From assembly GCF_025685575.1 (NCBI RefSeq), contig NZ_JAGSYD010000002.1:620001-684000 (forward strand): 64,000 nt of DNA, given 5' to 3'. The notes beneath the pieces are model-generated. The model searched no databases. It saw nothing but the letters and a program-made list of their open reading frames with translations, and had not been told where the DNA came from. Every line of letters starts with the position of its first letter. Positions within the stretch are counted from its first letter, which is position 1. Position numbers and translations under genes: made by a program. This document shows, piece after piece, positions 7,236 through 23,746 of the stretch. This DNA comes from Granulicella cerasi (GTDB taxonomy: Bacteria > Acidobacteriota > Terriglobia > Terriglobales > Acidobacteriaceae).

Positions 7236-7720
7236 TCACTCAGAAGTGCGCCGCGCCATGAAGGACAGATCAGGCCACTGCCTTTTCTCGCTCTTAATTC
7301 CCAACAGAGCAATTGACCGAGGCTGCAGAAGATACTCTGCTCCTACGATCTGTTTGTCCGCGTCTTCGAGGCTGCACTCTGGAGTCGTTTCGAAGGTATC
7401 CAACACTCTGAACCAATGGAGGGTGGCATCGGGTACAGGAGGTATCGCAAACTGCAGGGGCTGCCAGAAGGCATTCAGCATCATGTGAAGTGCCAGTCCA
7501 TCTTCTGCATATACGGTAGCGGCCAGTGTATTAGAGTCATCCGAAAAGTCAGGACAATACAGCTTCGCTCCATGCCATTCGATGTGGGAGTGCTCCAACA
7601 TTTCGCGCAGCGAAAGTCCGTGGCCGCGAAACGTCGAGCCAAAGCGTCTTCTCATCCTGGTCAGCATCGACACAAAGCGGCGCAAGTCAGCATTCTTCGA
7701 ACAGAGGCTCCAGTCGAACG
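7236..7720 (-). pseudogene. glgX: glgX (glycogen debranching enzyme) C-terminal fragment
   Basis: Only about the last 160 residues of a GlgX-type (GH13) glycogen debranching enzyme are recognisable. They run from 'FDWSL' through 'DLRRFVSMLTRMRRRF', 'IEWHGAKLYCPDFSDDSN', 'MLNAFWQPLQFAIPP' and 'WFRVLDT' to a normal stop at 7236. The open frame continues upstream to 8465 but stops resembling GlgX near base 7720, where an IS66 tnpA begins on the other strand; the catalytic barrel is missing. The fragment converges on ackA. Debranching belongs with glycogen phosphorylase, so the complete gene probably once completed the cassette. The exact break point is uncertain by a few tens of bases. Confidence 0.75.
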
Positions 7721-7776
7721 TAAGCGTCCGGTGAAGGCACCTGGACGAGGTGTGCTGCCGAGTTGACGATGTCAGT

Positions 7777-8202
7777 ATGGCAGGCATGGAGATGGGCCAG
7801 TTCGTAGCTGTGCGGTCACCGCGGCGGCGGTGGAGTGTTGAGGAGCGGCGAAGGATCGTAGAAGAGACGCTGGAGCCTGGCGCATCGGTTGCGCGTGTGG
7901 CGCAGCGATATGGAGTGAACGCGAACCAGGTCTTCGGGTGGCGCAGGCTGTACGAGGGCGGCGGCTTACAAGCGCTGCCGCAGGCCTCCGTTAAGCTGCT
8001 GCCGGTCAGCATCGACGACGTGCCCGAAGCAGCCCAGGCGCAGGTGAGCCCCAGTGCTTCGTCTCGCGGCACGATCCACATCGAACTGCCCGGGCGAGCG
8101 ATGATCAGCGTTGAAGGCGCCGTGGATGCGGCGCTTTGGGACCGATTCGACAGAAGGCGGCTCCGCATCTCCAAGAAAACTCCCTTCGAATGGCGATTTT
8201 GA
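7777..8202 (+). pseudogene. IS66-family accessory protein TnpA, 3' end replaced
   Basis: The N-terminal part is a helix-turn-helix of IS66 TnpA: 'RRRWSVEERRRIVEETLEPG', 'VARVAQRYGVNANQVFGWRR', followed by the usual 'IHIELPGRAMISVEGAVDAAL' region in part. After about base 8135 the sequence changes to residues that do not belong to the family and run into the next open frame, so the natural end is lost. No TnpB or TnpC transposase of IS66 follows. This is the stump of an IS66 element, probably left by the recombination that joined it to the unknown gene downstream. Start codon choice among several nearby ATGs is uncertain. Confidence 0.75.
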
Positions 8203-9821
8203 ATGAGCTTTATAAACGTCCCGAAACAACACAGAAGTTTCTTGCTGAAGCTCTGACGTGGGCGAAGAAGCACGAGAACGTCTTCGACAACCGACTGGAG
8301 TTCGATGTCACCGGGGATTTTCTGACAATGGCGGAAGCAGTCGTATCTACTGCAACGCTCGTGGCGCGTAGTGGTTCGATGGAGCTTCTGGAGGAAGAAG
8401 GCTCCTGGGTGCGGTCCATATTTGAACGAGTGTATGAAGGTGAGGCTGACCCGGTCTATTTGCATCGGGACGGTTTGCGTTTCAATCCACCAGCCATTGC
8501 CTTTGCGGGACAGGTTTTACTAATGCGTCGTTCCCGTCGTGCCGGAGATGAAGACCAACTCCTTCGGTTCGCCTGCGCTGTTGGGTATGGCGCTGCTCAC
8601 GGCTATGGGGCGACCTTACCTCTGATTCAGCAAACCCAGCCCAATCTCACTGCTTCGCTGATGCGCTGTGCTTTTGAAGGAGCGATCAGGCCTGACAACG
8701 CATGGAATATCTCAGAGGAAGAAAAGGCTCAACGGAGCAAACTCCTAGAAGACCGGCTCTCGGAACGTATCCGACATGAACTGAGCTGGCTCAACGGTGG
8801 CGCAAGCGAACCGGCGTGGCCGGCGTTCCCGATCAAGCGCGCAAAGCCTAAACCACCACGGAAGCAAACGCCTTCTCCTGAAACACCTGAAGCTGCCCCA
8901 AAAGAGTTGAGACATGTGCGTGTTGACTATCATCGCGCAGCTTTGTGGCTCAGACATAGCCGTTCACTGCTTGGAAAGACTCCCGCGCCATGGCTGACGG
9001 AGATGATTGAGGCCTACCTGATCTGGACGCAGCAAGCAAACGGATATGGAGGAGATAAACAGGAGCGTTTTGAACGTGGCCCCTCTGAGTGGAATTCCGT
9101 CTACTTTGAAGCTGCAGCCAGATGTATGAAGCACATGGAAGAGGAAGCGTTTGACCAGCGACTCCGCGACTTCTTTGCGGAGCTTCCAGAGGAGCCCTTG
9201 ATGGATACCGTGACGCCGTTTCTACGCAGTGCCGATGTTGGTTATCTTGATTTCCAAACTCTCTCCGTCTCGCAAATGACTAGGGTTCGTGCTTTCGTTA
9301 TGGCGCAACTGCAAAGTACACGCATGTTTACCTGGAACAAGGATCGGGACGAAACAACTGTGACATCAGATATCGCCACTGCGTTTGCAGCGGTTTGCTT
9401 CAATATCTATTACGGTGGCTTTGCTCCTGCAAAATGTTTTGTTCCTCCGAACCTCATTCGAGACACAGACTCGTTTCTGCCTCTTCTTGAAGAGTTCATC
9501 GACGTTTGCCGTTCTCCGTTTTTGACCTTTCTTTATTTGAACTACTTCGAGGTTGCTCCGCATGAAGTTCAGGTGCCATGCGTATTAGGCTGCGCTGAAA
9601 AATGGCTCGAACGGTTTCCCGAGAGCAATCAGTTTTGGGTCGAGTGGAGCGTCGGTCGTCGCATCTGTGCTGTTCTTGTAAAGATTTTGAACGAATCACC
9701 ACAGGCATTCGATGTTGACGCTGTGCGGACACGGCTGGACAGGTTCCTGAGCCATCTAGTGGGCCTCGGTGTCACGGAAGCTCACGAAATGGAACGTCTA
9801 CTGTATAGAGTCGGTGCCTAA
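8136..9821 (+). CDS. Uncharacterised protein, probably the C-terminal part of a larger protein
   Basis: I do not recognise this gene. The frame encodes up to 561 residues, but it opens inside the IS66 stump, and the first ATG that could serve outside it is at 8190 without a clear ribosome binding site. The sequence looks soluble and mostly helical, with a proline- and lysine-rich linker near residues 230-255 ('KRAKPKPPRKQTPSPETPEA') separating two helical parts. There is no signal peptide and no obvious catalytic motif. The lack of an own start and the abrupt junction suggest loss of an N-terminal domain. A large helical C-terminal region of this kind occurs in some multidomain defence ATPases, but nothing here proves that. 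A small membrane-protein frame starts two bases after its stop. Confidence 0.5.
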   Translation: MGPIRQKAAPHLQENSLRMAILNELYKRPETTQKFLAEALTWAKKHENVFDNRLEFDVTGDFLTMAEAVVSTATLVARSGSMELLEEEGSWVRSIFERVYEGEADPVYLHRDGLRFNPPAIAFAGQVLLMRRSRRAGDEDQLLRFACAVGYGAAHGYGATLPLIQQTQPNLTASLMRCAFEGAIRPDNAWNISEEEKAQRSKLLEDRLSERIRHELSWLNGGASEPAWPAFPIKRAKPKPPRKQTPSPETPEAAPKELRHVRVDYHRAALWLRHSRSLLGKTPAPWLTEMIEAYLIWTQQANGYGGDKQERFERGPSEWNSVYFEAAARCMKHMEEEAFDQRLRDFFAELPEEPLMDTVTPFLRSADVGYLDFQTLSVSQMTRVRAFVMAQLQSTRMFTWNKDRDETTVTSDIATAFAAVCFNIYYGGFAPAKCFVPPNLIRDTDSFLPLLEEFIDVCRSPFLTFLYLNYFEVAPHEVQVPCVLGCAEKWLERFPESNQFWVEWSVGRRICAVLVKILNESPQAFDVDAVRTRLDRFLSHLVGLGVTEAHEMERLLYRVGA

Positions 9822-9823
9822 AT

Positions 9824-10062
9824 ATGGTTCCTCGTGCATCTATCCGAGGATTCTTAGGTGTACTGCTCAAAGACACCGGATCGCTTATGTCCGGCTCTCT
9901 CTCAGTGATAGCCGCACTCTTTGCGCACTTCTATGACGCAAGCCATGCCCGGATGGGATTCGGGATATGTGCTGCGATCTGCGCGCTCATTGCTACTTAC
10001 CGCATCTGGGCAACAGAAAGACAGCAACGTATCGCAGCAGAGGAATACCTCGCCGCTCCAGA
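9824..10062 (+). pseudogene. Small two-helix membrane protein, truncated
   Basis: The frame starts with ATG two bases after the preceding stop. It encodes about 80 residues with two hydrophobic segments ('LMSGSLSVIAALFAHF' and 'GFGICAAICALIATYRI') followed by a charged stretch 'WATERQQRIAAEEYL'. This layout (two membrane helices, then a coiled-coil-like tail) is seen in small bacterial proteins whose tail continues into a larger domain. Near 10063 the frame enters the out-of-frame remnant of an oxidoreductase gene, so the natural C terminus is missing; the chimeric frame stops at 10573. It probably formed a unit with the gene before it. Function unknown. Confidence 0.5.
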
Positions 10063-10065
10063 CCT

Positions 10066-10573
10066 CAAAATTGACGACGCTGGAACAGTTCAGCAACATG
10101 ATTGCGCTCAACAACACCGCACTGACGGCCTTATCCAAAGCAGCACTTATGCTCTTCCAAAAGAAGAACACCGGAAGCATCGTCAATATCGGCTCAGGAG
10201 TTGGTTTTGCCCCGTTGCCCATGGTTCCTGTCTATGGTCCCACCAAGGCATACGTGATGCAGTTCACACAGATTCTTCAGCCGCAGGTAGCCGGAACGGG
10301 AATTCGCGTTCAGCTTGTTACCCCTGGCGCAGTGCTGTCGGAAGGATGGGATGTTGCTGGGGCGCTGATCTTGACCCCTTGAACCCTTCCGTCATCATGA
10401 CGACAGAAGATTGCGTGGACGCAGCACTTATGGGACTGGATCGCGGCGAGCAGATCACGGCTCCCTTGCTGGAAGATGAGGCCCTGTTGAGCAACTACGA
10501 AGCTGTCTCTGGAGCTCTGCTGCAAGGGATGTTTCGTGGCACGCCCGCGACCCGTTACAGATCGCGAGAATAA
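10066..10573 (+). pseudogene. SDR-family oxidoreductase remnant, frameshifted
   Basis: The C-terminal two thirds of a short-chain dehydrogenase lie here in two frames. The first frame carries 'MIALNNTALTALSKAAL', 'TGSIVNIGSGVGFAPLP' and the catalytic 'YGPTKAYVMQF' (Tyr-x3-Lys), then reaches a stop at about 10380. The second frame picks up at 'LNPSVIMTTEDCVDAAL' and continues to the stop at 10573, so a single frameshift separates them. The N-terminal Rossmann nucleotide-binding half is absent; the sequence before about 10063 belongs to another gene. The gene cannot make a working enzyme. Confidence 0.8.
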
Positions 10574-10790: not shown

Positions 10791-11160
10791 TCACTGCGAA
10801 AGAGCCAGCCCTAACCCGTTCACCTGCTTCGAGAGTTGGGGCTGCGTTGTGGCTATTGACGGCACCTGAGCAGCGTGCTTCCCAAAGTCCAAAGCAGAGG
10901 TTTTCGACATATCCGCGCTGAGGCGTTCTGCGAGGTTAGAGGCGTCGTTTGTGAAGACTTGCGCGTCGTGAGACGCACGGGAAACCGAGACGTAGGCGAA
11001 TCTTGCGTTGATGAGGTCGGAATGGACGTCGGTGTCCATGTTCACGAGAACGCGCTGCGATGTTAGTCCTTGAGAACTGTGCGACGTGACGGCGTAGCCG
11101 TGGTCAAAATGACGCATCTCCTTCGGATCGAAGGAGACATCCTTATCCTCCGTCAGGAAG
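10791..11160 (-). pseudogene. MobF (TrwC/TraI-like) relaxase C-terminal remnant
   Basis: This is the in-frame tail of the virB11 gene. The segment from about 'FLTEDKDVSFDPKEMRHFD' on matches the end of the helicase part of MobF relaxases: motif V-like 'GYAVTSHSSQGLTSQRVLVN' and motif VI-like 'YVSVSRASHDAQVFTND', then a short low-complexity end. The HUH relaxase domain and helicase motifs I-IV are absent from the window. The junction lies near base 11150-11165. The simplest history is one deletion from the end of virB11 into relaxase codons, in frame. Confidence 0.85.
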
Positions 11161-12089
11161 CGCTGCTCAGCGTGGCTATATCCGGAGACCGTAATCAGCT
11201 CCCGGACGCGGCGGCGGCCCTTGTGATCGCGCTCGCAATGGAGAACGAAGTCGACCGCTCTTCCGGTCTGTGACCGAACGAATGTCTGGTCCAGATTGGT
11301 CCTGGCGCTCAGCGCCATGTCTGCGAGCCTATCGAGGGCATCCACGGCCGAATCCGCATGGAGAGTCGCCATCGTCCCGCCGTGGCCGGTGTTCATGGCC
11401 TGGAGCAAGTCATAGCCCGATTCATCCCGAATCTCGCCCATGATGATGCGGTCGGGACGATGGCGTAGAGCAGCGGCCACGAGCTGGCTCGGAGTAACGG
11501 CAACCTGTCCCGGAATCGCGGCGACAGCCTCCCACCGAACGGCGTTCGGATGAGCGATCTTCAGCTCTGCCGGTTGCTCGATGACGACGAGGCGTTCGTC
11601 CATCGGAACGTGATCGAGGAGCGCCTTCATCAGGGTCGACTTACCCGAGCCCGTACCGCCGCTGATGATGCCGTTCTTCCGCTTGCGAATTAGCTCCACC
11701 ACATCATCGCGAACCGACTGGGGAAAACTGCCAGCTTCGACCAGCTGATCACTCGTATACCAGCGGTTGAATTTGCGGACAGTCAGGGTCGGCCCGTTGA
11801 TGGACGATGGCGCTCCGACGACAGCCACGCGCGAGCCGTCAGGCAAGCGTGTGTTGAGGATCGGATTCTGGCCGGTGAGGTCCTGGCCAAGAATGCGGGC
11901 GACACGCTCGATTGCAGCCTGAAGGCGGTCGTTGGCATACGGTGCGGAGAGTGCGATGTGTCCCACGACTCCGCCGCGATCCGCGAAGACACCCGTAGTC
12001 CCGTTAATCATGAGATCGGAGATCGAGTCGTCCTGGAGGAGTGCGCGAAGCTCCTCCGGGAAGAACGGCAATATGAGTTCGAAGCTCAT
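10791..12089 (-). CDS. virB11: VirB11-type secretion ATPase fused to a MobF relaxase tail
   Basis: Residues 1 to about 308 are a VirB11/TrbB hexameric ATPase that powers type IV secretion at the inner membrane. They contain Walker A 'GGTGSGKST' (144-152), 'LRHRPDRIIMGEIR' (208-221) and the His-box 'GGTMATLHADS' (237-247). The usual end of VirB11 ('RRVRELITVSGY', 293-304) is followed without a stop by about 120 residues of a different protein: the C-terminal part of a TrwC/TraI-like conjugative relaxase-helicase, with motifs 'HGYAVTSHSSQGLT' and 'RFAYVSVSRASHDAQ'. The family normally ends near residue 310-340, so this 432-residue product is a fusion. The start ATG overlaps the virB8 stop (ATGA). 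Whether the ATPase still works with the tail is unknown. Confidence 0.93.
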   Translation of the reverse strand: MSFELILPFFPEELRALLQDDSISDLMINGTTGVFADRGGVVGHIALSAPYANDRLQAAIERVARILGQDLTGQNPILNTRLPDGSRVAVVGAPSSINGPTLTVRKFNRWYTSDQLVEAGSFPQSVRDDVVELIRKRKNGIISGGTGSGKSTLMKALLDHVPMDERLVVIEQPAELKIAHPNAVRWEAVAAIPGQVAVTPSQLVAAALRHRPDRIIMGEIRDESGYDLLQAMNTGHGGTMATLHADSAVDALDRLADMALSARTNLDQTFVRSQTGRAVDFVLHCERDHKGRRRVRELITVSGYSHAEQRFLTEDKDVSFDPKEMRHFDHGYAVTSHSSQGLTSQRVLVNMDTDVHSDLINARFAYVSVSRASHDAQVFTNDASNLAERLSADMSKTSALDFGKHAAQVPSIATTQPQLSKQVNGLGLALSQ

Positions 12090-12892
12090 CGTCCTGCCCC
12101 CGGAGTGGGCTGGGCGATGGCGTTCGTATTCGCTTCGGTTGTGCCGGGCGTCTGTACGTCCACAGAAACACGGTTCTCATGGAACTCTGTCAACGTAAGC
12201 CCGAGCGGATTGATGAACTCATACTGAGGGAAGATCTTCGCCTGATCGCTGACCTGCTTCGGATTCAGATAGTACGTTGCGGACAGCAGCCAATGCTCCG
12301 TACGCGGCTGATGAGAGGTGTGTTCTGAGTAGAGCTTGTCCAGCGTGATGAGCGCCGTTCCTCGGGCCACACGGACGCCTTGGACGGTCTCCTCGGACAT
12401 GGAGGTGATGGTCACGTTGCGCACCTGAACATCACCCGACTCGACCTGTCCTCCCGTGACCTGAGAGACAAGATGGCTATCGTTGTCAGTAGCCATGAGC
12501 TGCGCAGCCAGCGGCTGCGCGAGGAAGTAGTAGTTCAACGGATATTTCTTTGCGATGACCTCCCGATTGATGGTGAAACGATAGTTCACCCAATCCGTGA
12601 GATAGGTACGCACTTCCCCTTCGCGTGGGCTGTAGTTCAGATCACTGTATTGAATTGCCTGAGCGCGCCCCATCTCGTCGATTCGGATGTATCGACTGGC
12701 GATCGGGCGATGAGCCAACGAGAAGTTGAGCCACATGGATCCGCAGAGAAGCATAGCGCCGCAACCAATCACAAAGCGGTAGGCTTGGCGCTCTGAGTAG
12801 TGCGACGAGTAGACCTCGTTGCCGATCTTGTCCGTGAGCAAGGCTTGCTCCGATGTAAGCGCCGATCCAACGTGAACTGTGTGTGCTGACAT
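12086..12892 (-). CDS. virB8: Type IV secretion protein VirB8/TrbF
   Basis: Bitopic inner-membrane protein that helps assemble the secretion channel. Its 268 residues show a short cytoplasmic N terminus, one membrane segment (about 43-58, 'VIGCGAMLLCGSMWLNFSL') and a periplasmic NTF2-like domain with 'VRTYLTDWVNYRF' and 'ATYYLNPKQVSDQAKIFPQ'. The C terminus is extended by a Pro/Thr-rich stretch. It overlaps virB11 by four bases and lies 141 bases after virB6 in the same operon. Identification rests on topology, domain flavour and operon position. Confidence 0.85.
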   Translation of the reverse strand: MSAHTVHVGSALTSEQALLTDKIGNEVYSSHYSERQAYRFVIGCGAMLLCGSMWLNFSLAHRPIASRYIRIDEMGRAQAIQYSDLNYSPREGEVRTYLTDWVNYRFTINREVIAKKYPLNYYFLAQPLAAQLMATDNDSHLVSQVTGGQVESGDVQVRNVTITSMSEETVQGVRVARGTALITLDKLYSEHTSHQPRTEHWLLSATYYLNPKQVSDQAKIFPQYEFINPLGLTLTEFHENRVSVDVQTPGTTEANTNAIAQPTPGAGR

Positions 12893-13033: not shown

Positions 13034-13957
13034 TCAAGCGGCTCCCGCGCCCGCCATGGCGGCGCTTGAAGCCACTTTGCCGATCGCATTTCCCACGCTT
13101 CCAGCCATACCAGCGGCACCGCCGAAGATCGCCTGAGTCATGCTCGGGATGAAAAGCATGTTGATGACGAAGGCAACGAAGACCATCAGGCATGGGATGA
13201 GATTCGCGATCCACATTTCCATCGAGTAGTTCCCATTGAACGTTTGCTGAAGGAACCCGTTCATGAATCCAGCCCAGACATAAATGAACGCGGCGGCAAC
13301 GGCGCGGATCATGGCGAAGCTGATGAGCACGTCAAGAAACTGGAAGAACTTCGCACGATAGCTCTGCATCATCAGAAGAGGAATGAAGACCGGACCGAAG
13401 AGAGCAGTCACTCCGTACAGGATGAAGGCGCTTACATTGATGACGAAGAGGATCGCCGAGGCGAGGCCGAGCATGATCTGGACGAGCACATAGCAGAGGA
13501 TCTCAACGGGCGCAGTGAAGGACGGCATTGCCGTCCCGTCCCCGGCGGTCTTCAGAAGCTGTAAGAGTTGATCGAGCGAATTCTGATCAAATGCCGCCAC
13601 CATCGCTTGGGCGATGTACGAGAAGAAGTGATTGATGCCAAAGCTCGCTCCGGGAAACGGGTTGACCCAGTAGTTGAGCATCAAGCTGCAGATGATGAGC
13701 TTCATCAGGAAGTTGGTGAGATCGCCAGCGCGGACAGGATGATGATGAAGCCGCAAGGTCATCCCACTCGTGTTCCAGTTCACGACCATACTCACAAGAG
13801 TGAAGAGCGCGATGCAGCTCAGCTCGATTGCACCGAGTTGAGTCAGCGCACCACCGTTCTGCGTGGTGAGATTCGTGAGGTTGTTCGTGAACTGGTAGAG
13901 CCAGTCCATACCCGAGCTTGCGGAAGGTAACGCTTGTGCGAGAAGTGCGATGCTCAT
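13034..13957 (-). CDS. virB6: Type IV secretion polytopic membrane protein VirB6/TrbL
   Basis: 307-residue integral membrane protein with several strongly hydrophobic segments ('LIICSLMLNYW', 'ILCYVLVQIMLGLASAILFVI', 'FILYGVTALFGPVFIPLLM', 'MIRAVAAAFIYVWAGF', 'LIPCLMVFVAFVINMLFI'). The central 'GPVFIPLLMMQSYRAKFFQ' is typical of TrbL/VirB6, which forms part of the inner-membrane pore. The C terminus is Gly/Ala-rich. It sits between a 68-residue membrane protein and virB8. Start ATG at 13957; a GGAG-like signal lies a few bases upstream. Confidence 0.87.
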   Translation of the reverse strand: MSIALLAQALPSASSGMDWLYQFTNNLTNLTTQNGGALTQLGAIELSCIALFTLVSMVVNWNTSGMTLRLHHHPVRAGDLTNFLMKLIICSLMLNYWVNPFPGASFGINHFFSYIAQAMVAAFDQNSLDQLLQLLKTAGDGTAMPSFTAPVEILCYVLVQIMLGLASAILFVINVSAFILYGVTALFGPVFIPLLMMQSYRAKFFQFLDVLISFAMIRAVAAAFIYVWAGFMNGFLQQTFNGNYSMEMWIANLIPCLMVFVAFVINMLFIPSMTQAIFGGAAGMAGSVGNAIGKVASSAAMAGAGAA

Positions 13958-14191: not shown

Positions 14192-14980
14192 CTACGGCAG
14201 ATAGGTCTGCCAGGTATTGCTCTCTGTGGCGGCGCTCATGTCGTGCGTTGAACGCTGAGTCTGCACGAAAGCAGCATCGTTGAGGTCGGTGGCGGCTGCA
14301 TTGCGCCGCTCCATATTGGCCACGGCCATCTGAGAAGCAACGCAAGCCTGAAGAGCGCCCTGGTTCTGAATCTCGGACATCTTCTGTGCCTCCGCTGCAT
14401 TAAGTAGGTTCAGCTGCTGCACTTCGCTGTTGGTCGTGCTCGACCCATCAAGCTGGTTGGCTGTCAGGGTGCTGTTAGCCGTTGCGTTCTGCGTGCGGCC
14501 TGCACGGTACGCTCCGACCGCCGTGATGCAGTCGGGCGAGATGGCGTCAGACATCTCGACCATCGCAAGCTGCGACATCTGCGGAGTGCCAACCGTCTGG
14601 CCTTGGAAGTAACTACTCACGTTCGAACTGACGGGAGTAGTCGCCGAATTCCAAGCGGTGGCTGACGCCGAGGTTGAACCGCCGTTGAGCGCGACCGTCA
14701 TGCCGGCAGTTTCGCCGAATGTATTTGCAACATTCACGCTCTTCAACGCAGTCATCGCCGTCTGCCATTGCTGCTTCAGGCTGAAGTGCTCGACGTTGTT
14801 CTTGAGCATCGTGTACTGTGACTCGAGCGTCGTGAGCTGCGAGACGAGGCTTGCATAACTGGTCGGGTCGAAGACGATGTCGCCGATCCCGAACAGAGCA
14901 AAGCTAGGTGTGGCGGTCAGTAGGAGGACTCCTCCTCCAATGAGCCATCTACGCGGGTGTTTGAGCTGGATCTTCATCAT
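14192..14980 (-). CDS. virB5: Type IV secretion protein VirB5/TrbJ
   Basis: Secreted minor pilus-tip or periplasmic component. A signal peptide is visible ('RRWLIGGGVLLLTATPSFA'), followed by 'FGIGDIVFDPTSYASLV' and 'LTTLESQYTMLKNNVEHF', the characteristic TrbJ/VirB5 opening ('VFDPTNY...Q...L..QY..L'), and a mostly helical, Ser/Thr/Asn-rich body. I chose ATG 14980 (ATGATG) because TTTGGAGCTC precedes it and the signal peptide starts there; the open frame extends to 15097 without signal. 262 residues. It lies between the two small ORFs of the operon. Confidence 0.85.
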   Translation of the reverse strand: MMKIQLKHPRRWLIGGGVLLLTATPSFALFGIGDIVFDPTSYASLVSQLTTLESQYTMLKNNVEHFSLKQQWQTAMTALKSVNVANTFGETAGMTVALNGGSTSASATAWNSATTPVSSNVSSYFQGQTVGTPQMSQLAMVEMSDAISPDCITAVGAYRAGRTQNATANSTLTANQLDGSSTTNSEVQQLNLLNAAEAQKMSEIQNQGALQACVASQMAVANMERRNAAATDLNDAAFVQTQRSTHDMSAATESNTWQTYLP

Positions 14981-14999
14981 GAGCTCCAAAGGGAAATGT

Positions 15000-15203
15000 T
15001 TAGAAGTAGCAGGGACACGTCGGATTGAAGCCTTCATAGAAGCAGGCCTTATCAAGGCCGCCGATGAGAGAACCGACGAACTCAAGAGAATCCTCACCCG
15101 GACGCGCTATGCGGAAGGTGTTCCCCATCAAGGCGAGCAGCGCGCCTGCGAGGCACACTTCAACTCCAACGCAGAGGAACGGACGTACGCGGGGAAGGAT
15201 CAC
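15000..15203 (-). CDS. Small membrane protein with cysteine-rich C terminus, secretion operon
   Basis: 67 residues starting at GTG 15203, preceded by a strong AAAGGAGG eight bases upstream, which is the main reason to believe the gene. One hydrophobic segment ('FLCVGVEVCLAGALLALMG') is followed by a soluble stretch and the unusual end 'KACFYEGFNPTCPCYF', with four cysteines in the last 17 residues or so. It lies between virB10 and virB5, separated from each by about 20 bases. I know no family; a VirB7-like or channel-stabilising role is possible by position, but that is inference. Confidence 0.7.
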   Translation of the reverse strand: MILPRVRPFLCVGVEVCLAGALLALMGNTFRIARPGEDSLEFVGSLIGGLDKACFYEGFNPTCPCYF

Positions 15204-15219: not shown

Positions 15220-16494
15220 TTACAGAGTTGGGTCGACGCGATGCTCCGCGTACGAAGGAATAAGGATGTCGCGACCGATGTAGATGCGCGCGCGTGAGCC
15301 TTCCTTGAGCGTGATAACCGGCAGACGATTGAGGAAATGATTCAGTACCTGCTCGCCCTCAGAGGAAGTCTGCTCCGAGATGCCGTTACGAATCTGCGTT
15401 GATGGCGTGAAGACACTGCCGTTGTTGCCGATCTGCGCCAGGCCGCCGAGGCCACCGATAGCAGCGGCAGCGCCGAACGCCATCAGGTATCCGTGATCGA
15501 TCTTCGTGGCCAGGCCTGTCGTCCCAATCTGATCGAGACCGACATACTTGTCGAAGTCGAGCGAAAACCCGTCCGGGCACACAGCGCGATGGAAGGTGAC
15601 GAACATCTTTCGCTGCTGTGCGTTGCCTACGTTCTGCACCGTGCCGATCAAGCGAGTACCCTGCGGCATGAGCAGTTGCTGATGATCGTGCGAGTAGTAA
15701 TCGGTGGTCAGCATCACAAGGATGGGGCCGGACAGGCCGCCGTCGATGTGGTTGGTAACGACACCTTCTAGCACCGTTCCCTCGAAGACCCGGTAGAGCT
15801 GCCCCTGATAGTTGTCGAAGTTATAGGACGACATCGGATCGGTCTTTGCGGTCTGAGCCACGGTCTGCTCTTTGGACCCCGTATGGCCTGACAAATCCTC
15901 TTCGGAACCCTTGTCGCTGGCCTCCGACTTCGCCGCAAGCACTGCGGTGGGCGCAGCTCCCACTCCCTGATGGGAGAAATCAATGGCCACGGTGTCGCTG
16001 TTCCGCGCGTCCTGTCGCTGCTTCTCGATAGCCAGCCTCTTCTGTTTCGCCTCAGCCTGAGCTTCAGAGACATTCGAGGTGTGTTGCGGCGCATTTGCGC
16101 TGTCGCCATAAATCTGTGATTTCTGCGCAGCCGTCATCGGTGGTGTACCTGCCGACTCCGGACTGGGCACCGCTTGCTCTTGCTGCAACTCCTGCATGGC
16201 ATCGGCTAGCGCCTTCTTTCGCTGCAACTCTTCTGCGTCATGGCGAGCCTGATTCTGTTGCTGGGCCTGGAAGCTCGATACTTGCTGGGCATTGGGCGTC
16301 ATTGGGCTTGTGGTCAGCGCACTCTGAGGAGCGGCTTTCTTGCTGCCGCTGACCAGGCTGGAGAGATTCGCTATCCCAATGAGGGCAACGATCACCACAA
16401 GGGCAATGACGACGGGCATGGTCTTCCGCAGAGGAGGCTTCGCCTCCGGCTGCTCGGGGACGCTTGCTGAGGGTGTGTTGATCTCTTCCGGCAT
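15220..16494 (-). CDS. virB10: Type IV secretion protein VirB10/TrbI
   Basis: Channel scaffold spanning inner membrane to outer membrane. The product has 424 residues: a short cytoplasmic N terminus, one membrane helix (about 26-48, 'MPVVIALVVIVALIGIANL'), a Gln/Ala-rich periplasmic linker, and the conserved C-terminal beta-barrel domain with 'VLEGVVTNHIDGGLSGPILV', 'LMPQGTRLIGTVQN' and 'AFGAAAAIGGLGGLAQIG' (the antenna region). The ATG shares one base with the virB9 stop (TAATG). Confidence 0.95.
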   Translation of the reverse strand: MPEEINTPSASVPEQPEAKPPLRKTMPVVIALVVIVALIGIANLSSLVSGSKKAAPQSALTTSPMTPNAQQVSSFQAQQQNQARHDAEELQRKKALADAMQELQQEQAVPSPESAGTPPMTAAQKSQIYGDSANAPQHTSNVSEAQAEAKQKRLAIEKQRQDARNSDTVAIDFSHQGVGAAPTAVLAAKSEASDKGSEEDLSGHTGSKEQTVAQTAKTDPMSSYNFDNYQGQLYRVFEGTVLEGVVTNHIDGGLSGPILVMLTTDYYSHDHQQLLMPQGTRLIGTVQNVGNAQQRKMFVTFHRAVCPDGFSLDFDKYVGLDQIGTTGLATKIDHGYLMAFGAAAAIGGLGGLAQIGNNGSVFTPSTQIRNGISEQTSSEGEQVLNHFLNRLPVITLKEGSRARIYIGRDILIPSYAEHRVDPTL

Positions 16495-17330
16495 TACTGC
16501 CTCCCTTCAGGTGAGCGGTGAAAGTCAACCTTCTGCTTGCCAATTTCGAGATAACCGCCGTCGATCTGCTTCGGCACGATGTACAGGCCATTCGAGAAAT
16601 CGAAGTTGATGAGCGAGGGCTTCTTGTCCTTCACCTCATAGAGAGCGGGCGTCTCCTGAAACTGGCCGCGCAGATAGGTGAACTTGTCATCCCGCCAAAT
16701 CTGCTGAAGTCCAAGCTCCTTACCTTTCTTCTCGTCCCAGGTGAAATCGAAGTGGAGCGAGCCGGGATACTGACTGCGGTACTGTTCTGCTTTCGCCGCT
16801 TCTGCCTTCAGTTCGGCGGCCTGAGCCGCTTTGGCTGTAGCAGCTTCCTGCTTTGCTTTATCGAGGTCTGCAGCAGGTACGAAGACGGGAAGCTGGGCGA
16901 GGCGATCCTTGGCAGCTTTATCGCCGGGGTCGATGCGGATCTTCGAGTCAAAGTGCGCGTCCGCGTCGTTCGACACTTCCTGAAGCTGAAGGGTGTACTC
17001 GTTGCCGTGGTCGGAGACGATATGGATGTCCGTCGATCCGTTCACCACCTTTGGCTTCACGCTCACGAAGCGCGATGCGACATGCCCGCCGTCGAATACC
17101 CAGTCCACCGTGTCGCCTGCAAAGACATTCGCAACCTTCTCCTCGGCGGGCAGCACGATCAGTGTGCACTGGAGCAGGCCAGCCCGGATAATGGGCGGCG
17201 TCTGGGACTCCGAGACGGACACAGTGCGCGGAGCGGACGGCTGGAGAGGATGGTTCAGCTCAAGCGCCCGCAGCGGCAGCGATGGGAGCATGATTCCGGC
17301 GGCAACAAAGAGAGGGATGAGTGGTTTCAC
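16494..17330 (-). CDS. virB9: Type IV secretion protein VirB9/TrbG
   Basis: Outer-membrane-associated ring component that partners VirB10. It has a signal peptide ('LIPLFVAAGIMLPSLPLRA'), an N-terminal domain with 'CTLIVLPAEEKVANVFAGDT' (the typical 'VLP..E.I..V..GD' motif), an Ala/Lys-rich helical linker (about residues 175-200), and the C-terminal domain with 'FDFTWDEKKG', 'IWRDDKFTYLRGQF' and 'GLYIVPKQIDGGYLEIGKQ'. I chose GTG 17330, which follows AAAGGACTGAAGCC and starts just before the signal peptide; an upstream ATG at 17378 would overlap virB4. 278 residues. Confidence 0.93.
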   Translation of the reverse strand: MKPLIPLFVAAGIMLPSLPLRALELNHPLQPSAPRTVSVSESQTPPIIRAGLLQCTLIVLPAEEKVANVFAGDTVDWVFDGGHVASRFVSVKPKVVNGSTDIHIVSDHGNEYTLQLQEVSNDADAHFDSKIRIDPGDKAAKDRLAQLPVFVPAADLDKAKQEAATAKAAQAAELKAEAAKAEQYRSQYPGSLHFDFTWDEKKGKELGLQQIWRDDKFTYLRGQFQETPALYEVKDKKPSLINFDFSNGLYIVPKQIDGGYLEIGKQKVDFHRSPEGRQ

Positions 17331-17355
17331 GGCTTCAGTCCTTTCGAGTGCTGGG

Positions 17356-19725
17356 TTATGCGGTCTCACCTTCGGCAAAGCGGGCGATGCCTTCGGCGAG
17401 ACCGTACTTGGCGATGAGTTGAGACCGGCGAACGCGGTCCTTTGGCTTAGTGGAGAAGGTGGCGTAACTACGCTTGTCGAGATTGAGGCGGATGACCTTG
17501 GTCAATCCATCGCGCCTCATGTAGAGACCTTCGCGATCCTGCAAGCTCTCGAAGAGAGTGAGTTGTTGTTCGTTCATCTTGAACAGCTCGGCATACCTCT
17601 TCCGGTTGAAGGTGGCATCCTTCAGGAAGAGGAACGAAGTGCAAGAGTTCACGATGGAATCGGCATTTGCTCCGAGGTCTTCGGCTGATTGGCCGATCAT
17701 CGTGACGCCACCAAGGTTCTTGCGGACGGTCTTGATGGAGGCCAATGCCGCGTCAAGCAGTTGCTTGTTCTTCATCGAAGAGAAGATCTCTTCGATCAGG
17801 ATGTGTTTCGGCACCCCGAGATTGGCGGGGTTGTAGAGCACATCATTGATGCGTCGCAACAACCAGACCATCAGCGGCTCGATCAGGTCAGCATATTGCT
17901 GGTTGTTCACGCCCTGGAAGTCGAAGCACTGGATACGCGAGAGCGAAAGGCTGTCGTCGATGTTGTCGAAGATCGCGCTGTAGACGCCCTTGCCAACCCA
18001 CTTGGACAGGTAGCGGTCGAGCTTCTTTGGCAGAAATAGATTCGAGAGACGACGATTGCTGGCATCGAGCAGATATATATCCTGCACGGCCTTATGGATC
18101 ACGTCGTCGTCTTCCGGCTCAAGTTCCGCACCGCTATTCGAGAGGAGCAGCTTGATGAAGCTGTAGAGGAACTGGATGTTGCTCTCGGTCGGCTCCAGGC
18201 AAAACGGATTGACGCGCGGACCATCTTTCCCAATGCGATCAACCCTGCCGCCGTACAGCTCGACGACGCTTTCGTAGCTTCCACCAATGTCGAAGATGTA
18301 GGTGAAGCCCGCATACTTCTGCTCATGTGCGATGGCCATATTGCCATGTACCGATTTGCCACTGCCCGTAGGCCCGAGGATCAGTTGCACACGGACGCCA
18401 TCAACATACGCATCCTGAAAGAACGGCGTCCCTGTGCGTGTCTCGAAGATGTTGAGGTACTCGTTGTCGAGGTCTTCGGAATACGGATGACCAAGATGAG
18501 GAGCAAAAACGGAGGCCAGCCGCGCGTTGTGATCTTCCGCGAGCCACAGAGGAAAGACGTTGAACTTCCCATTGCCGGGGAACATCGCATAGAAGGCGGA
18601 GAGATTGCCAAGCGTCTCTTCCATTACCTGAGCACGCGATTCCACGAAGACGCGGTGAACCATAGGAGCGATGCCGACCAGTTCCATCCGGCTGCGAGAT
18701 GCGATCAGTAGCCGGAGCGAAAACTCGCCCTGTGCCTTCTTATCGAGCGAGCGAATGACATCGCCAAGGTCATCGACCTGATTATTCGCGGCTCGTGCGC
18801 CCGCGCCTTTATCAAGTGAGGCAGTGTCGCGCCCGCTCATGACGCGGGTCAGCACGCCGACTTTGAAGAACTCGATGAACTTTTCCTGCCGGTCGATCTC
18901 TCCACGCGCTGCTGTCGTGGATTTCGGCCTCCATGTCGTACAGAGGATACTGTCGCAATCGAGCTTAGCGAGATCAGAGAAGAGGCATGGGCGCGATGCT
19001 TCCGGCGTCATCTTCAAAGAGAACATCTGCACGAATCGCTTGCCGACGCGAAGATGGTCGCTCTCCCAATGAACGGGGCTTTTCACGATCTGGCGATCTA
19101 CGCCGTCATTAGAGCGGAGACGATCCTGCTCGGCCCAGTCTTCAAGGTTGAACAGATAGCTGAAGAACTTAAACGCTTCTTCTTTGCCGAGAACCTTCAA
19201 GCCAAGCAGGCTGCCGAGGTTCCCGGCGAGCAATGTAGCTGTCTTCTCCAAGTCAGCCAACATGCGCGATGTGGCGAACTCATTCTCGTGTGGATGCTTC
19301 TTGAAGGCCTCTGCCTTCTCCGGCTCGACGGTCAGGCACCAGTGAATGTCCATTCGTCGAAAGGCAGCTTCCTTTTCAAGGAAGCGCACACGTTCACTCA
19401 CGATGACATCCGTCATCAGGTGGGGATAAAGATCGCGCTTTGGCAGGGCGAAGCCCGACCGAATGCGCGAATACTGATACAGGCAAGCGCCTTCCGGCAG
19501 ACCTCGCAGAGCACCTTCGATCATGCGGAGATGTGAATTGAGTTCCTGATCGGTCAGGCACTCTTCATCCAGGCCGGAGAGACTGAACAAGCACCCGTAG
19601 CCTCCGCTCTTGAGAGCAAAGAGGCGATCGCTCACGAAGCGAGCAATCGGCACGATGCTGCAGGCGGCCCCAGCCTTCGCGAACCACGGCACGGATTGGG
19701 TCTGCTCACTGTTTGCGCGGGTCAT
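17356..19725 (-). CDS. virB4: Type IV secretion ATPase VirB4/TrbE
   Basis: The large AAA+ ATPase that energises pilus assembly and transfer. 789 residues, normal for the family. The N-terminal CagE/TrbE domain contains 'GGYGCLFSLSGLDEECLTDQ'; Walker A 'GPTGSGKS' is at 451-458, and a Walker B-like 'PKHILIEEIFSSM' follows about 180 residues later, then 'GGVTMIGQSAEDLG'. All ATPase motifs look intact. The start overlaps virB3 by 20 bases, a common arrangement for these two genes. Confidence 0.96.
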   Translation of the reverse strand: MTRANSEQTQSVPWFAKAGAACSIVPIARFVSDRLFALKSGGYGCLFSLSGLDEECLTDQELNSHLRMIEGALRGLPEGACLYQYSRIRSGFALPKRDLYPHLMTDVIVSERVRFLEKEAAFRRMDIHWCLTVEPEKAEAFKKHPHENEFATSRMLADLEKTATLLAGNLGSLLGLKVLGKEEAFKFFSYLFNLEDWAEQDRLRSNDGVDRQIVKSPVHWESDHLRVGKRFVQMFSLKMTPEASRPCLFSDLAKLDCDSILCTTWRPKSTTAARGEIDRQEKFIEFFKVGVLTRVMSGRDTASLDKGAGARAANNQVDDLGDVIRSLDKKAQGEFSLRLLIASRSRMELVGIAPMVHRVFVESRAQVMEETLGNLSAFYAMFPGNGKFNVFPLWLAEDHNARLASVFAPHLGHPYSEDLDNEYLNIFETRTGTPFFQDAYVDGVRVQLILGPTGSGKSVHGNMAIAHEQKYAGFTYIFDIGGSYESVVELYGGRVDRIGKDGPRVNPFCLEPTESNIQFLYSFIKLLLSNSGAELEPEDDDVIHKAVQDIYLLDASNRRLSNLFLPKKLDRYLSKWVGKGVYSAIFDNIDDSLSLSRIQCFDFQGVNNQQYADLIEPLMVWLLRRINDVLYNPANLGVPKHILIEEIFSSMKNKQLLDAALASIKTVRKNLGGVTMIGQSAEDLGANADSIVNSCTSFLFLKDATFNRKRYAELFKMNEQQLTLFESLQDREGLYMRRDGLTKVIRLNLDKRSYATFSTKPKDRVRRSQLIAKYGLAEGIARFAEGETA

Positions 19726-19969
19726 AGTAGCTCTTCTGGTTGAGGCCCAGGCCCCATAGCTGGAACATCTTTGGGTGTTTGCGCACGATGAACCATGCGC
19801 CGATTGCGAGTGCTGGAAACGCGAGCATCGCGAGAAAACGAAACCCGACGAGGAAAACCGTCACGCAGACGAATACGATCGCCATCCATGCTGAGAGGTC
19901 CAATCCGAGCTTGGCTCGGGGCCGGTTCAGCGCTTGATTGATTGGTGACGGCTCTCCTCGACGAGTCAT
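19706..19969 (-). CDS. virB3: Type IV secretion protein VirB3/TrbD
   Basis: 87-residue inner-membrane protein with one or two adjacent hydrophobic segments ('AWMAIVFVCVTVFLVGF' and 'FLAMLAFPALAIGAWFIV') and the N-terminal 'INQALNRPRAKLGLDLS', where the 'NRP' is the usual VirB3 signature. The start ATG at 19969 is preceded by a perfect AGGAGG ten bases upstream, which overlaps the virB2 stop codon. It is followed with overlap by virB4, as in most type IV systems. Confidence 0.9.
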   Translation of the reverse strand: MTRRGEPSPINQALNRPRAKLGLDLSAWMAIVFVCVTVFLVGFRFLAMLAFPALAIGAWFIVRKHPKMFQLWGLGLNQKSYYDPRKQ

Positions 19970-19983
19970 AGTCGATGTACCTC

Positions 19984-20274
19984 CTACATCGACTGCCCGG
20001 TCAGCGAGCCAATCCAACCAGCTCCCCAACCGAGAACTCCGGCACCAAACAGCGCACCGAAGAGTCCGGGAATCGCATCTTGAAAGCGACCGCTCATCAT
20101 GCGGATGCCCGCGAAGATCAGGCCGCCAAGACAGATGACCGCACCGGCGTACATCGCGAAGGTTTTGAACGTTCCCATGAGCGTTTGTGCTCCGGAAAAA
20201 TCCATCGTTCCTTGCGCATGGGCGGCCGAGACGAGACCGAGTGTAAGAAGAATGGGAATCAGCTTGCGAATCAC
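19984..20274 (-). CDS. virB2: Type IV secretion pilin VirB2/TrbC
   Basis: Major pilin precursor. It has an N-terminal signal sequence ('LIPILLTLGLVSAAHAQ') and two hydrophobic helices ('FKTFAMYAGAVICLGGLIFAGIRM' in part and 'LFGALFGAGVLGWGAGWI') joined by a short polar loop, the standard VirB2 layout. I start it at the GTG at 20274 because the signal peptide begins there; an upstream ATG at 20358 would add 28 unrelated residues. First gene of the leftward operon; a LysR-type dyad lies 180 bases upstream. Confidence 0.87.
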   Translation of the reverse strand: MIRKLIPILLTLGLVSAAHAQGTMDFSGAQTLMGTFKTFAMYAGAVICLGGLIFAGIRMMSGRFQDAIPGLFGALFGAGVLGWGAGWIGSLTGQSM

Positions 20275-20453
20275 TTCGATCCGAGGCTGAATGCGATGAC
20301 CTCTCTTGCGAGAAACCAATATTGAATTAGCGGTACTAGAGCTGGACCACATCGGCACCTCCTGACGACTGCAGTCAGTCGCGGTATGCCGTCATCATTG
20401 GCGAGGTGCAGGTTAGCCGTCTAATACTTCTTATTTATCGGGTGCATATCGTG

Positions 20454-20523: not shown

Positions 20524-21522
20524 TCATCGAATCAATCGAAGCTGAATCGGGACTTTCGGCTTGGGACTTGAAGTTTCTTCTCTTGCATGGAGGAAGTTAG
20601 CAAGTCGCTTTTGCTCTGTAGGACTTGCATTACGCAAGATGCTCTTCTGCAAACGCCGGATAATGATCGGAAGCGTCTTCGGATACTTTTCACGACGGCA
20701 AATGATCGCGCTATCGATTGTCCATTCGACATCAATAAGCCTTCTTGTCGTCAGTTCTGGCTCGTGCACTCCGCCCTCACGAACGAGTGCTAAACCATAG
20801 TCTTCGAGGACAAGCATCTGCATTTCTATTGGATGTGATCCGCTGGAATACTCTTCAATGCAAACGCCCGACTGCGCAAGGAGTTCGAGCAGTCGGGCAT
20901 GTGCTTGCGGGTGCCGATCGGGTTCGTAGAAGACACCCAATTTGCCCTGCAAGTCTTTGACCTGAAGGGCAGCATGTTCCGCGAGTGGATTGTCCTTTCG
21001 CATGCAGACAACAAGTTTGTCTTTCCGAAGGCGATCGAGACGTAACTCCGGATGCGTGAAAGGAAGAGTGATCAACGCCGCGTCCAGCTTGCCCTCCAAA
21101 ACTTGTGCGGCAAGGTACACCGTGTCTCCGTGTGCCGAGCGGATTGTACAGTTCGGCAGTAGCTCTTTGTGTAGGGAACATAGCGTTCTGAAAAGCTCTT
21201 GATCGACGAGCGGACTGCACCCAAATCGAATGGTCTCGAGTTCTCCTCTATCGATCGCGATCAGAGCCTCAATCGCTTCGTCGCGAGCTTCCAGAACATG
21301 TTTCGCAAGCGTTATGAAAGCGAGCCCTGATTCGGTTGGATGAATTCTTCCATCCTTCGCCTTCCTATACAACGTGACGGAAGCATTTTCCTGGAACTGT
21401 CTAGCCTGCACGGTGAGGTTTGGCTGCGACGTATGCAGCATCTCCGCAGCGGAGCGAAAGCCTCCGCGCTCAAGAATCTTTAGCAAATACAAGAAGTGAC
21501 GAAACTCAGCCCAATCGTGCAT
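20524..21522 (-). CDS. LysR-type transcriptional regulator
   Basis: 332-residue DNA-binding regulator with an N-terminal winged helix ('FLYLLKILERGGFRSAAEML', 'TSQPNLTVQARQFQE', about residues 10-45) and a periplasmic-binding-like effector domain ('DAALITLPF', 'EMQMLVLEDYGLALV'). It lies between the secretion operon and the alpA-integrase end of the element and is transcribed in the direction of virB2. Near-identical T-N11-A dyads occur upstream of it (21740-21760) and downstream, before virB2 (20454-20474), which suggests autoregulation plus control of the secretion operon. The effector ligand is unknown. Confidence 0.92.
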   Translation of the reverse strand: MHDWAEFRHFLYLLKILERGGFRSAAEMLHTSQPNLTVQARQFQENASVTLYRKAKDGRIHPTESGLAFITLAKHVLEARDEAIEALIAIDRGELETIRFGCSPLVDQELFRTLCSLHKELLPNCTIRSAHGDTVYLAAQVLEGKLDAALITLPFTHPELRLDRLRKDKLVVCMRKDNPLAEHAALQVKDLQGKLGVFYEPDRHPQAHARLLELLAQSGVCIEEYSSGSHPIEMQMLVLEDYGLALVREGGVHEPELTTRRLIDVEWTIDSAIICRREKYPKTLPIIIRRLQKSILRNASPTEQKRLANFLHAREETSSPKPKVPIQLRLIR

Positions 21523-22252: not shown

Positions 22253-23482
22253 TCAATGATTTAGCGTTGCGGCGTTTCCTTTTTCCAACTGGGTGTCCAG
22301 GTAGTCGGCCCACCATTGCATCATTGCGGTTCGCTGCTTCAAATATTTTGCATGGTTGTATGCCGCCGAGACCTTGTTGCGCTTCATATGCGCCAACTGG
22401 AGGTCTACATGCTCTTCGTCAAAGTCATTCTCATTGAGAATCGTTGACGCCAGCCCACGGAAGCCGTGGCCGGTCATGCGCCCTTTGTAGCCGAGTCTGT
22501 AGAGCGCGTAGAGCAACGTGTTGTTGCTCATCGGAATCGTCTTGTCATTCGCGCCCGGAAACACGAGGCGGCTTCTGCCGGCGAGGAGTTTCAAAGCCTT
22601 GAGGACATCAACAGCCTGGCGCGAGAGCGGAATGATATGAGGTGTCTTCATCTTCATGCGTTCGCGTGGGATCTCCCAACGCGCACGCACGAGATCGATC
22701 TCCGTCCAAGGAGTTTCGATGAGTTCGCTCGTTCGCGGGAAGCAATACGCCATTAGCTTCAACCCAAGTCTAGTGAGTGCATCGCCTTCATAGTTGTCCA
22801 TTTTTACGAGCAACTCAGGAAGGTCAGTCTCATCGACACGAGCGAAGTTCTCTGACTCGACTGCGGCCAAGACATCTCTGGGCTTGAAGTCGCCAGCAGG
22901 GTTTCGGGTGGCCAAGTCACGAGCGATGGCAAAGCGGAAGATTTGACCAATAGTTTGGTGTGCTCGCTTTGCAACGTCGCTAGCGCCGCGAGCCTCAATC
23001 GCAGTGATGATGTTGCGAACCTGCCCTGGCTGGATATCATCGGCAGATAGATGGCCGATTGCCGGAAAGACATCCGCTTCCAAACGATTCATCACAGTTT
23101 CTGCATGTCGCGGAGACTTTCCGATCGCCCACCAATCCCACCAACAACGCGCGATCTTTTCAAAGCTCTTCTCCGACTCGCGCTGCTCATCACGAATCGC
23201 CTTCTGTTTGTCCTGAGCTTCAGCCTTTCGCTTCGCCATAGGATCGGAGCCAGAAATAAGAATTCTCCTGGCTTCGAAATGGAGTTCTCGCACGTCTTTC
23301 AGCCCGAGTGCGGGATACTCTCCGAAGGCCATCATCTTCTCCTTGCCGTCGAAACAGTAGCGCCAGCGCCAGAGCTTCGCGCCGGTCACGGACACAAGGA
23401 GACATAAGCCTCCACCATCGGAGAGCTTGTAAGGCTTTGTCTTCGGTGATGCGTTTTCGATTTGTTTGAGGGTGAGCGGCAT
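22253..23482 (-). CDS. int: P4-type tyrosine integrase
   Basis: 409-residue site-specific recombinase that inserts and excises the element. The N-terminal DUF4102 arm-binding domain is visible ('LSDGGGLCLLVSVTGAKLWR', 'MMAFGEYPALGLKDVRE'), followed by the core-binding domain and the catalytic domain with the first arginine in 'FPRTSELIETPW', the 'HGFRGLAST' box (His-x2-Arg), 'LQLAHMKRNKVSAAYNH' with the probable nucleophilic tyrosine in 'AAYN'. All catalytic residues seem present, so the enzyme may be active. The gene starts about 190 bases from tRNA-Gln, the typical arrangement for tRNA-directed P4 integrases. Confidence 0.96.
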   Translation of the reverse strand: MPLTLKQIENASPKTKPYKLSDGGGLCLLVSVTGAKLWRWRYCFDGKEKMMAFGEYPALGLKDVRELHFEARRILISGSDPMAKRKAEAQDKQKAIRDEQRESEKSFEKIARCWWDWWAIGKSPRHAETVMNRLEADVFPAIGHLSADDIQPGQVRNIITAIEARGASDVAKRAHQTIGQIFRFAIARDLATRNPAGDFKPRDVLAAVESENFARVDETDLPELLVKMDNYEGDALTRLGLKLMAYCFPRTSELIETPWTEIDLVRARWEIPRERMKMKTPHIIPLSRQAVDVLKALKLLAGRSRLVFPGANDKTIPMSNNTLLYALYRLGYKGRMTGHGFRGLASTILNENDFDEEHVDLQLAHMKRNKVSAAYNHAKYLKQRTAMMQWWADYLDTQLEKGNAATLNH

Positions 23483-23647: not shown

Positions 23648-23692
23648 GGCGAAGTTCGCCAAAGTGCGTAGTTGGTTGCCCCCCAGGGATTC
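23648..23692. other. Element attachment-site region (one end)
   Basis: The junction of element and tRNA-Gln. The 3' part of the tRNA (from about 23673) should be the shared att core. A 13-base palindrome GGCGAAGTTCGCC (23648-23660) lies just inside the element. I found no second copy of the tRNA 3' end in the window, so the other boundary is left of base 1. The core length cannot be fixed without that copy. Confidence 0.55.
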
Positions 23693-23746
23693 GAACCCCG
23701 ATCGAGCGAGTCAGAGTCGCTAGTCCTACCATTGAACGAGAGGGCA
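23673..23746 (-). tRNA. tRNA-Gln (anticodon CTG)
   Basis: Full cloverleaf of 74 bases including an encoded CCA: acceptor TGCCCTC / GGGGGCA (one G-T pair), D arm with AATGGTAGG, anticodon stem AGCGA / TCGCT around loop CTCTGAC (anticodon CTG), and T arm with TTCGAAT. Read on the minus strand, its 3' end points to the integrase, so the element is inserted at the 3' end of this gene without destroying it. The chromosomal ybb genes begin on its 5' side. Confidence 0.95.

Follow-up and report, generated by a model that had tools for sequence, protein, structure and literature searches.

An in-frame fusion of a VirB11-like ATPase to the end of a MobF-type relaxase in a truncated conjugative element of Granulicella cerasi

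The stretch of DNA analysed, referred to below as the window, comprises 64,000 nucleotides of the soil bacterium Granulicella cerasi (contig NZ_JAGSYD010000002.1, positions 620,001 to 684,000). It contains a virB operon, a LysR-type regulator gene and a tyrosine integrase gene adjoining a tRNA-Gln gene (Table 1). The genes virB2, B3, B4, B9, B10, B5-like, B6 and B8 have full-length frames in comparison with relatives. Together with virB11, the set found includes B2, B3, B4, B5-like, B6 and B8–B11; VirB1 and VirB7 were not identified at the locus. The virB11 gene is located at the end of the operon, overlapping virB8, and its frame runs on into a stretch of relaxase sequence.

Table 1. Features of the locus and related derivatives. 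Positions refer to the window unless a locus or contig is named; junction types are given as virB2 residue/relaxase residue, for a virB2 head of 77 and a relaxase of 923 residues.
Feature	Position	Strand	Remarks
virB11::relaxase-tail fusion ORF, 432 aa	10791..12089	-	start codon ATG at 12089, stop codon ending at 10791, open throughout; ATGA overlap with virB8 (12086/12089)
VirB11-like ATPase part, codons 1-315	11145..12089	-	T2SSE 7e-42; 90-91% identity to relatives
VirB11 Walker A GGTGSGKST	11634..11660	-	residues 144-152
VirB11 His box GHGGTMATLHADS	11349..11387	-	in place
Deletion junction ACGGAGGAT/AAGGATGTC	11144..11145	-	~7.3-7.4 kb absent relative to intact elements
MobF/TrwC-type relaxase C-terminus, 117 codons + stop	10791..11144	-	counterpart of residues 809-923 in a 923-aa relaxase
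Relaxase helicase motif V HGYAVTSHSSQG	11067..11102	-	residues 330-341
Relaxase helicase motif VI YVSVSRAS	10971..10994	-	residues 366-373
virB8	12086..12892	-	PF04335; full length vs relatives
virB6	13034..13957	-	PF04610; full length vs relatives
virB5-position gene	14192..15097	-	66-86% identity to same-position gene in relatives; no Pfam match; true start probably ~40 codons inside
virB10	15220..16494	-	PF03743
virB9	16494..17378	-	PF03524
virB4	17356..19725	-	TIGR00929 VirB4_CagE 4e-67, below cut-off; PF19044 and PF03135 above cut-off
virB3	19706..20029	-	PF05101
virB2 pilin, intact here	19984..20358	-	PF04956 1.6e-5, slightly below cut-off; 73-99% identity to relatives
LysR-type regulator	20524..21522	-	LysR gene at the same place in sister elements
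Tyrosine integrase adjoining tRNA-Gln	22253..23482	-	
tRNA-Gln(CTG), probable attachment site	23673..23746	-	no second copy of its 3' part found
virB2::relaxase fusions	L139:5287-5979, L140:6187-6795, L162:7602-8363, L163:7722-8459		
virB2::relaxase fusions	L164:8542-9075, L165:4136-4828, L172:7033-8577, L174, L226		
virB2(19)::relaxase(461) in-frame fusion	L243:7071-7727		own genome C3, ~775 kb
Loci with TGGATHGG-cut virB2	L203-L207, L211-L218, L222 and others		

By sequence comparison, residues 1–315 of the fusion frame belong to the VirB11/TrbB/CpaF group of secretion ATPases. The Pfam T2SSE model matches residues 20–308 (E = 7e-42), and the Asp box, the Walker A motif, the Walker B region and the His box are all retained. 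The head is 90–91% identical to its counterparts in Acidipila sp. EB88, Granulicella sp. dw_53 and genome G302; the native protein of the nearest relatives has 322 residues, of which only the last seven are missing here. The NCBIfam equivalog model for VirB11 (TIGR02788) scores 205.8 bits, below its cut-off of 249.95 bits, and the TadA-family and TrbB models give similar scores, likewise under their cut-offs. Since no NCBIfam cut-off was reached and the closest solved chains in the PDB set are those of CpaF, the protein is labelled VirB11-like.

The remaining part of the frame is, on the same kind of evidence, a fragment of a MobF/TrwC relaxase and not a relaxase. Its similarity to MobF relaxases spans from just upstream of helicase motif V to their stop codon. 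The Pfam UvrD_C_2 model matches fusion residues 330–375 at 5e-5 and the tail alone at 9e-6, both slightly under the gathering score; the NCBIfam relaxase models TraA_Ti and TraI cover residues 312–407, and in the PDB set the tail aligns with residues 1398–1475 of F TraI. The best relative is a relaxase remnant in genome G145, 77–78% identical over 116–117 residues (E = 6e-54); the match takes in the entire tail, including the variable extreme C-terminus, and the homology is therefore not due to chance. The TrwC relaxase domain (PF08751) was found neither in the fusion frame nor elsewhere at the locus. AlphaFold gave the tail very low confidence both alone and within the fusion, both input alignments being shallow, and these poor models were left out of fold searches. 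A mixed VirB11/tail alignment (A1) was dropped, as the tails were smeared across its whole length. With separate Pfam, NCBIfam and PDB matches for each part and an open frame throughout, the in-frame fusion described in an earlier note, made from the sequence alone, is confirmed, and its placement of the Walker A motif was correct.

The homology to VirB11 ends and the homology to the relaxase begins at adjacent codons, 315 and 316, with the reading frame preserved; the junction had previously been put near base 11155. The 322-aa orthologs of EB88 and dw_53 terminate in FLTED/IYRASDA, and the window aligns with them through codon 315: the EB88 protein ends in YSHAEQRFLTED/IYRASDA, and the window reads YSHAEQRFLTED/KDVSFDPKEMRHFDHGY. 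At the same point the G145 relaxase reads RMDSG/KDVTFDPKEM, matching the window tail from codon 316. In dozens of related Acidobacteriaceae loci, the gene order and spacing define the missing segment. The order is virB2-3-4-9-10-5-6-8-11, SSB, RepB-type primase, NikA-like gene, virD4, trwC and parB; the two breakpoints lie ~7.3–7.4 kb apart in intact relatives (from the coordinates of loci L050 and L051), and the DNA between them encodes SSB, the RepB-type primase, the NikA-like protein, VirD4 and the TrwC relaxase/helicase. Since the related loci carry the same genes in the same order plus this segment, ~7.3–7.4 kb can be said to be missing from the window. The order virB11, virD4, relaxase assumed in the earlier note holds in relatives, except that virD4 does not directly follow virB11, the SSB, primase and NikA-like genes intervening.

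A single deletion, as that note had proposed, very probably accounts for both the fusion and the gene loss, leaving a transfer-defective remnant with a scar chimera. The element would belong to an integrated conjugative family specific to Acidobacteriaceae and would have lost the segment via illegitimate recombination between the seventh-last virB11 codon and a point ~117 codons before the relaxase stop. What such a deletion took, as the intact relatives make apparent, are the intervening genes and the body of the relaxase; what it left behind is the in-frame chimera with all VirB11 motifs kept, along with the VirB2–B11 genes found, all with complete frames. No long microhomology was seen at the junction, where at most one base is common with the closest relaxase, the true parent not being among the sequences found. 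The exact size of the deletion and any microhomology are inferred, since the progenitor element was not found.

The tail is not a natural extension of VirB11, the case against which the fusion had to be checked: 80 related VirB11 frames (coordinates taken from the fetched loci) have 321–347 residues, none carries the tail, and the window alone reaches 432. Nor is the fusion common to relatives. Among 398 genomes of the family, a whole-length match was present in the window's genome only, and the same fusion was absent from the 78 best GTDB loci and the best plasmid hits; a full-length match would have topped the ranking in both the family and the GTDB search. Viral contigs queried with a VirB2::tail fusion yielded no relative, and no paper describing a VirB11–relaxase fusion or a comparable Acidobacteria ICE was recognised among the search results listed.

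A misassembly that linked virB11 with the end of an unrelated relaxase is conceivable in a genome with several relaxase copies or pieces and a second T4SS, and is highly improbable given how these sequences differ. Nowhere else in the genome is there a stretch more than ~51% identical to the tail, and the DNA identity of the two virB operons is only ~71–79%, so the junction has no long repeat. The assembly, in seven contigs, is 98.7% complete, and the stranded partner sequence was not found. An intact sister element on contig C3 and a system at C2:403–411 kb each contain one VirD4 and one TrwC; beyond these two systems, no VirD4 or TrwC was found elsewhere in the genome. Stranding of the missing virD4 and relaxase on another contig is thus ruled out, each genomic copy being assigned to another system. 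A 446-aa relaxase C-terminal remnant beside a HATPase-domain gene was also observed on contig C6 (L009:6168–7508).

The element looks truncated and transfer-defective. The integrase at a tRNA gene expected of an autonomous ICE is present, and VirD4 and a relaxase are absent from the element. A second attachment site, which would show as a repeated tRNA 3' end, was found neither in the window nor in the rest of the genome. Since the relaxase and coupling protein are gone and the right attachment site was not found, the element would be unable to transfer itself. The left flank (7236–10573) is occupied by apparent gene debris: an isoamylase fragment, an IS66-like orfA (identified by eye), short-chain dehydrogenase fragments and a 561-aa ORF with no Pfam or PADLOC matches.

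Similar deletions were found in sibling elements, where virB2 is joined in frame to the C-terminal part of the relaxase. Four junction types were distinguished, three of which recur across genomes: 19/461 (L172, L226 and L243, the last in the window's own genome), 19/809 (L164), 51/771 (L162 and L163) and 70/821 (L139, L140, L165 and L174). The window junction, virB11 315/809, has the same relaxase breakpoint residue as L164. By inspection, 3–6 bases are common to both parents at some of the virB2::relaxase junctions. At L161 (9000–10490), the relaxase C-terminus follows an integrase gene out of frame, and the tail at this locus is the one most closely related to that of the window.

Silvibacterium bohemicum S15 (L119:10001–11625) resembles the window in that virB11 is followed only by a relaxase tail, virD4 and trwC being lost. 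It differs in that virB11 is intact with its own stop, a 348 bp spacer precedes a separate 98-aa tail ORF, and virB4 and virB9 are broken. The two tails group with different relaxases, so the loss is independent, and a common origin of the two is ruled out by the affinities of both tail and virB11. Judged from these sequences, the element family is one that repeatedly gives internal-deletion derivatives.

Anti-phage genes adjoin virB2::tail fusions: Gabija and AbiE at L165:1839–8397, a Septu PtuA-like gene at L140:6872–9263, and AbiE near arsenic-resistance genes (the latter recognised by eye) at L162:5013–6666.

A second pattern concerns more than 12 loci. In these, virB2 breaks off at precisely the same position (TGGATHGG, codons GWIG) and is mostly followed by an internal part of a ParB-like gene, out of frame, and otherwise by other genes. 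Upstream of the cut gene there are usually an integrase gene, an AlpA-like gene and LysR. The cut virB2 heads show strong amino-acid constraint (dN/dS ~0.02). Since ParB lies ~2 kb downstream of the relaxase in the intact element L070, the virB2–parB joins are also internal deletions.

The recurrence of in-frame joints raises the question of whether the product is selected: a fusion of a T4SS gene to the relaxase C-terminus might be advantageous, through continuous downstream translation or an action of the tail, and would then recur. The five direct T4SS gene–relaxase junction types (four with virB2, one with virB11) are all in frame, several of them in more than one genome, and the virB2 heads of such derivatives have a dN/dS of 0.02. 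Counting L161, five of six directly joined junction types are in frame, with a chance probability of ~0.02 at one third each in a test framed post hoc. Against a single random deletion, it can be said that such deletions need not leave all four virB2::relaxase types in frame, as they are. The argument is nevertheless post hoc, the L161 joint is out of frame and the L119 tail unfused, the short sequences common to both sides at some junctions could give in-frame products by chance, and the tail trees were built on ~100 residues. A selected product is thus quite improbable, and it is improbable that in-frame virB2/virB11–relaxase fusions are a recurrent, selected outcome of which the window chimera is a working variant. 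If this were true, selected fusions would yield integrase–LysR–virB2-head mini-elements with defence cargo. Because identical breakpoints in virB2 and the relaxase occur in several genomes, it can be tested whether such deletion is random or favoured.

In the single-deletion reading, the chimera would be translated through coupling from virB8, and its VirB11 part would still fold, the tail being a probably disordered passenger. The channel may assemble alone or with the VirD4 of the C3 sister element. The mean pairwise dN/dS of the virB genes is 0.05–0.16 for the window vs. 0.05–0.10 among relatives. The virB genes thus appear to show no clear relaxation of constraint, and most of the dN/dS signal probably predates the deletion. 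The dN in window pairs is somewhat above that of the relatives in most virB genes, which leaves room for slow decay; selection on the chimera is unproven.

Of the two outcomes suggested in the earlier note, dead conjugation is well supported as regards loss of self-transfer, and a secretion machine with an altered motor is conceivable. In the latter case, the VirB core and fused motor would be kept by selection for a role other than DNA transfer, as in the VirD4-less T4SSs with real functions, Bartonella Trw (PMC2610397), Bordetella Ptl and Brucella VirB (PMC12857230). The complete frames and low dN/dS of the VirB genes found (B2–B6, B8–B11) agree with such domestication, and GFP placed at the N-terminus is tolerated by Agrobacterium VirB11 (PMC4234268), a result that bears on the N-terminus and not directly on the C-terminus. 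We consider it rather unlikely: the VirD4-less arrangement was seen in one genome only (398 family genomes, 78 GTDB loci), the low pairwise dN/dS is mainly a record of the period preceding the deletion, the DNA beside the fused virB11 yielded no candidate substrate gene, and the left flank is debris. By analogy, some residual or new function of the VirB core is plausible. The exact breakpoint shows how VirD4 and the relaxase can be lost in one step from an element that keeps an apparently complete VirB channel, the way in which VirD4-less secretion systems have been proposed to arise.

Decayed ICEs and CIME-like deletion derivatives retain an integrase and part of the conjugation genes, the transfer module being lost. 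The window element likewise keeps its integrase and partial conjugation genes, but differs from them by the in-frame VirB11–relaxase chimera. Bordetella Ptl and Brucella VirB (PMC12857230) also consist of a VirB core without VirD4; they export known substrates, whereas no candidate substrate gene was identified beside the window system. Bartonella Trw, derived from an R388-type Trw, similarly has a VirB core colinear with a conjugation system from which the coupling protein gene was lost (PMC2610397). It is fixed across species, its pilin gene and trwJ are amplified and its role has been shown (PMC2610397), whereas the window arrangement occurs in one genome, has no duplications and bears a scar at which virB11 runs into the end of the relaxase.
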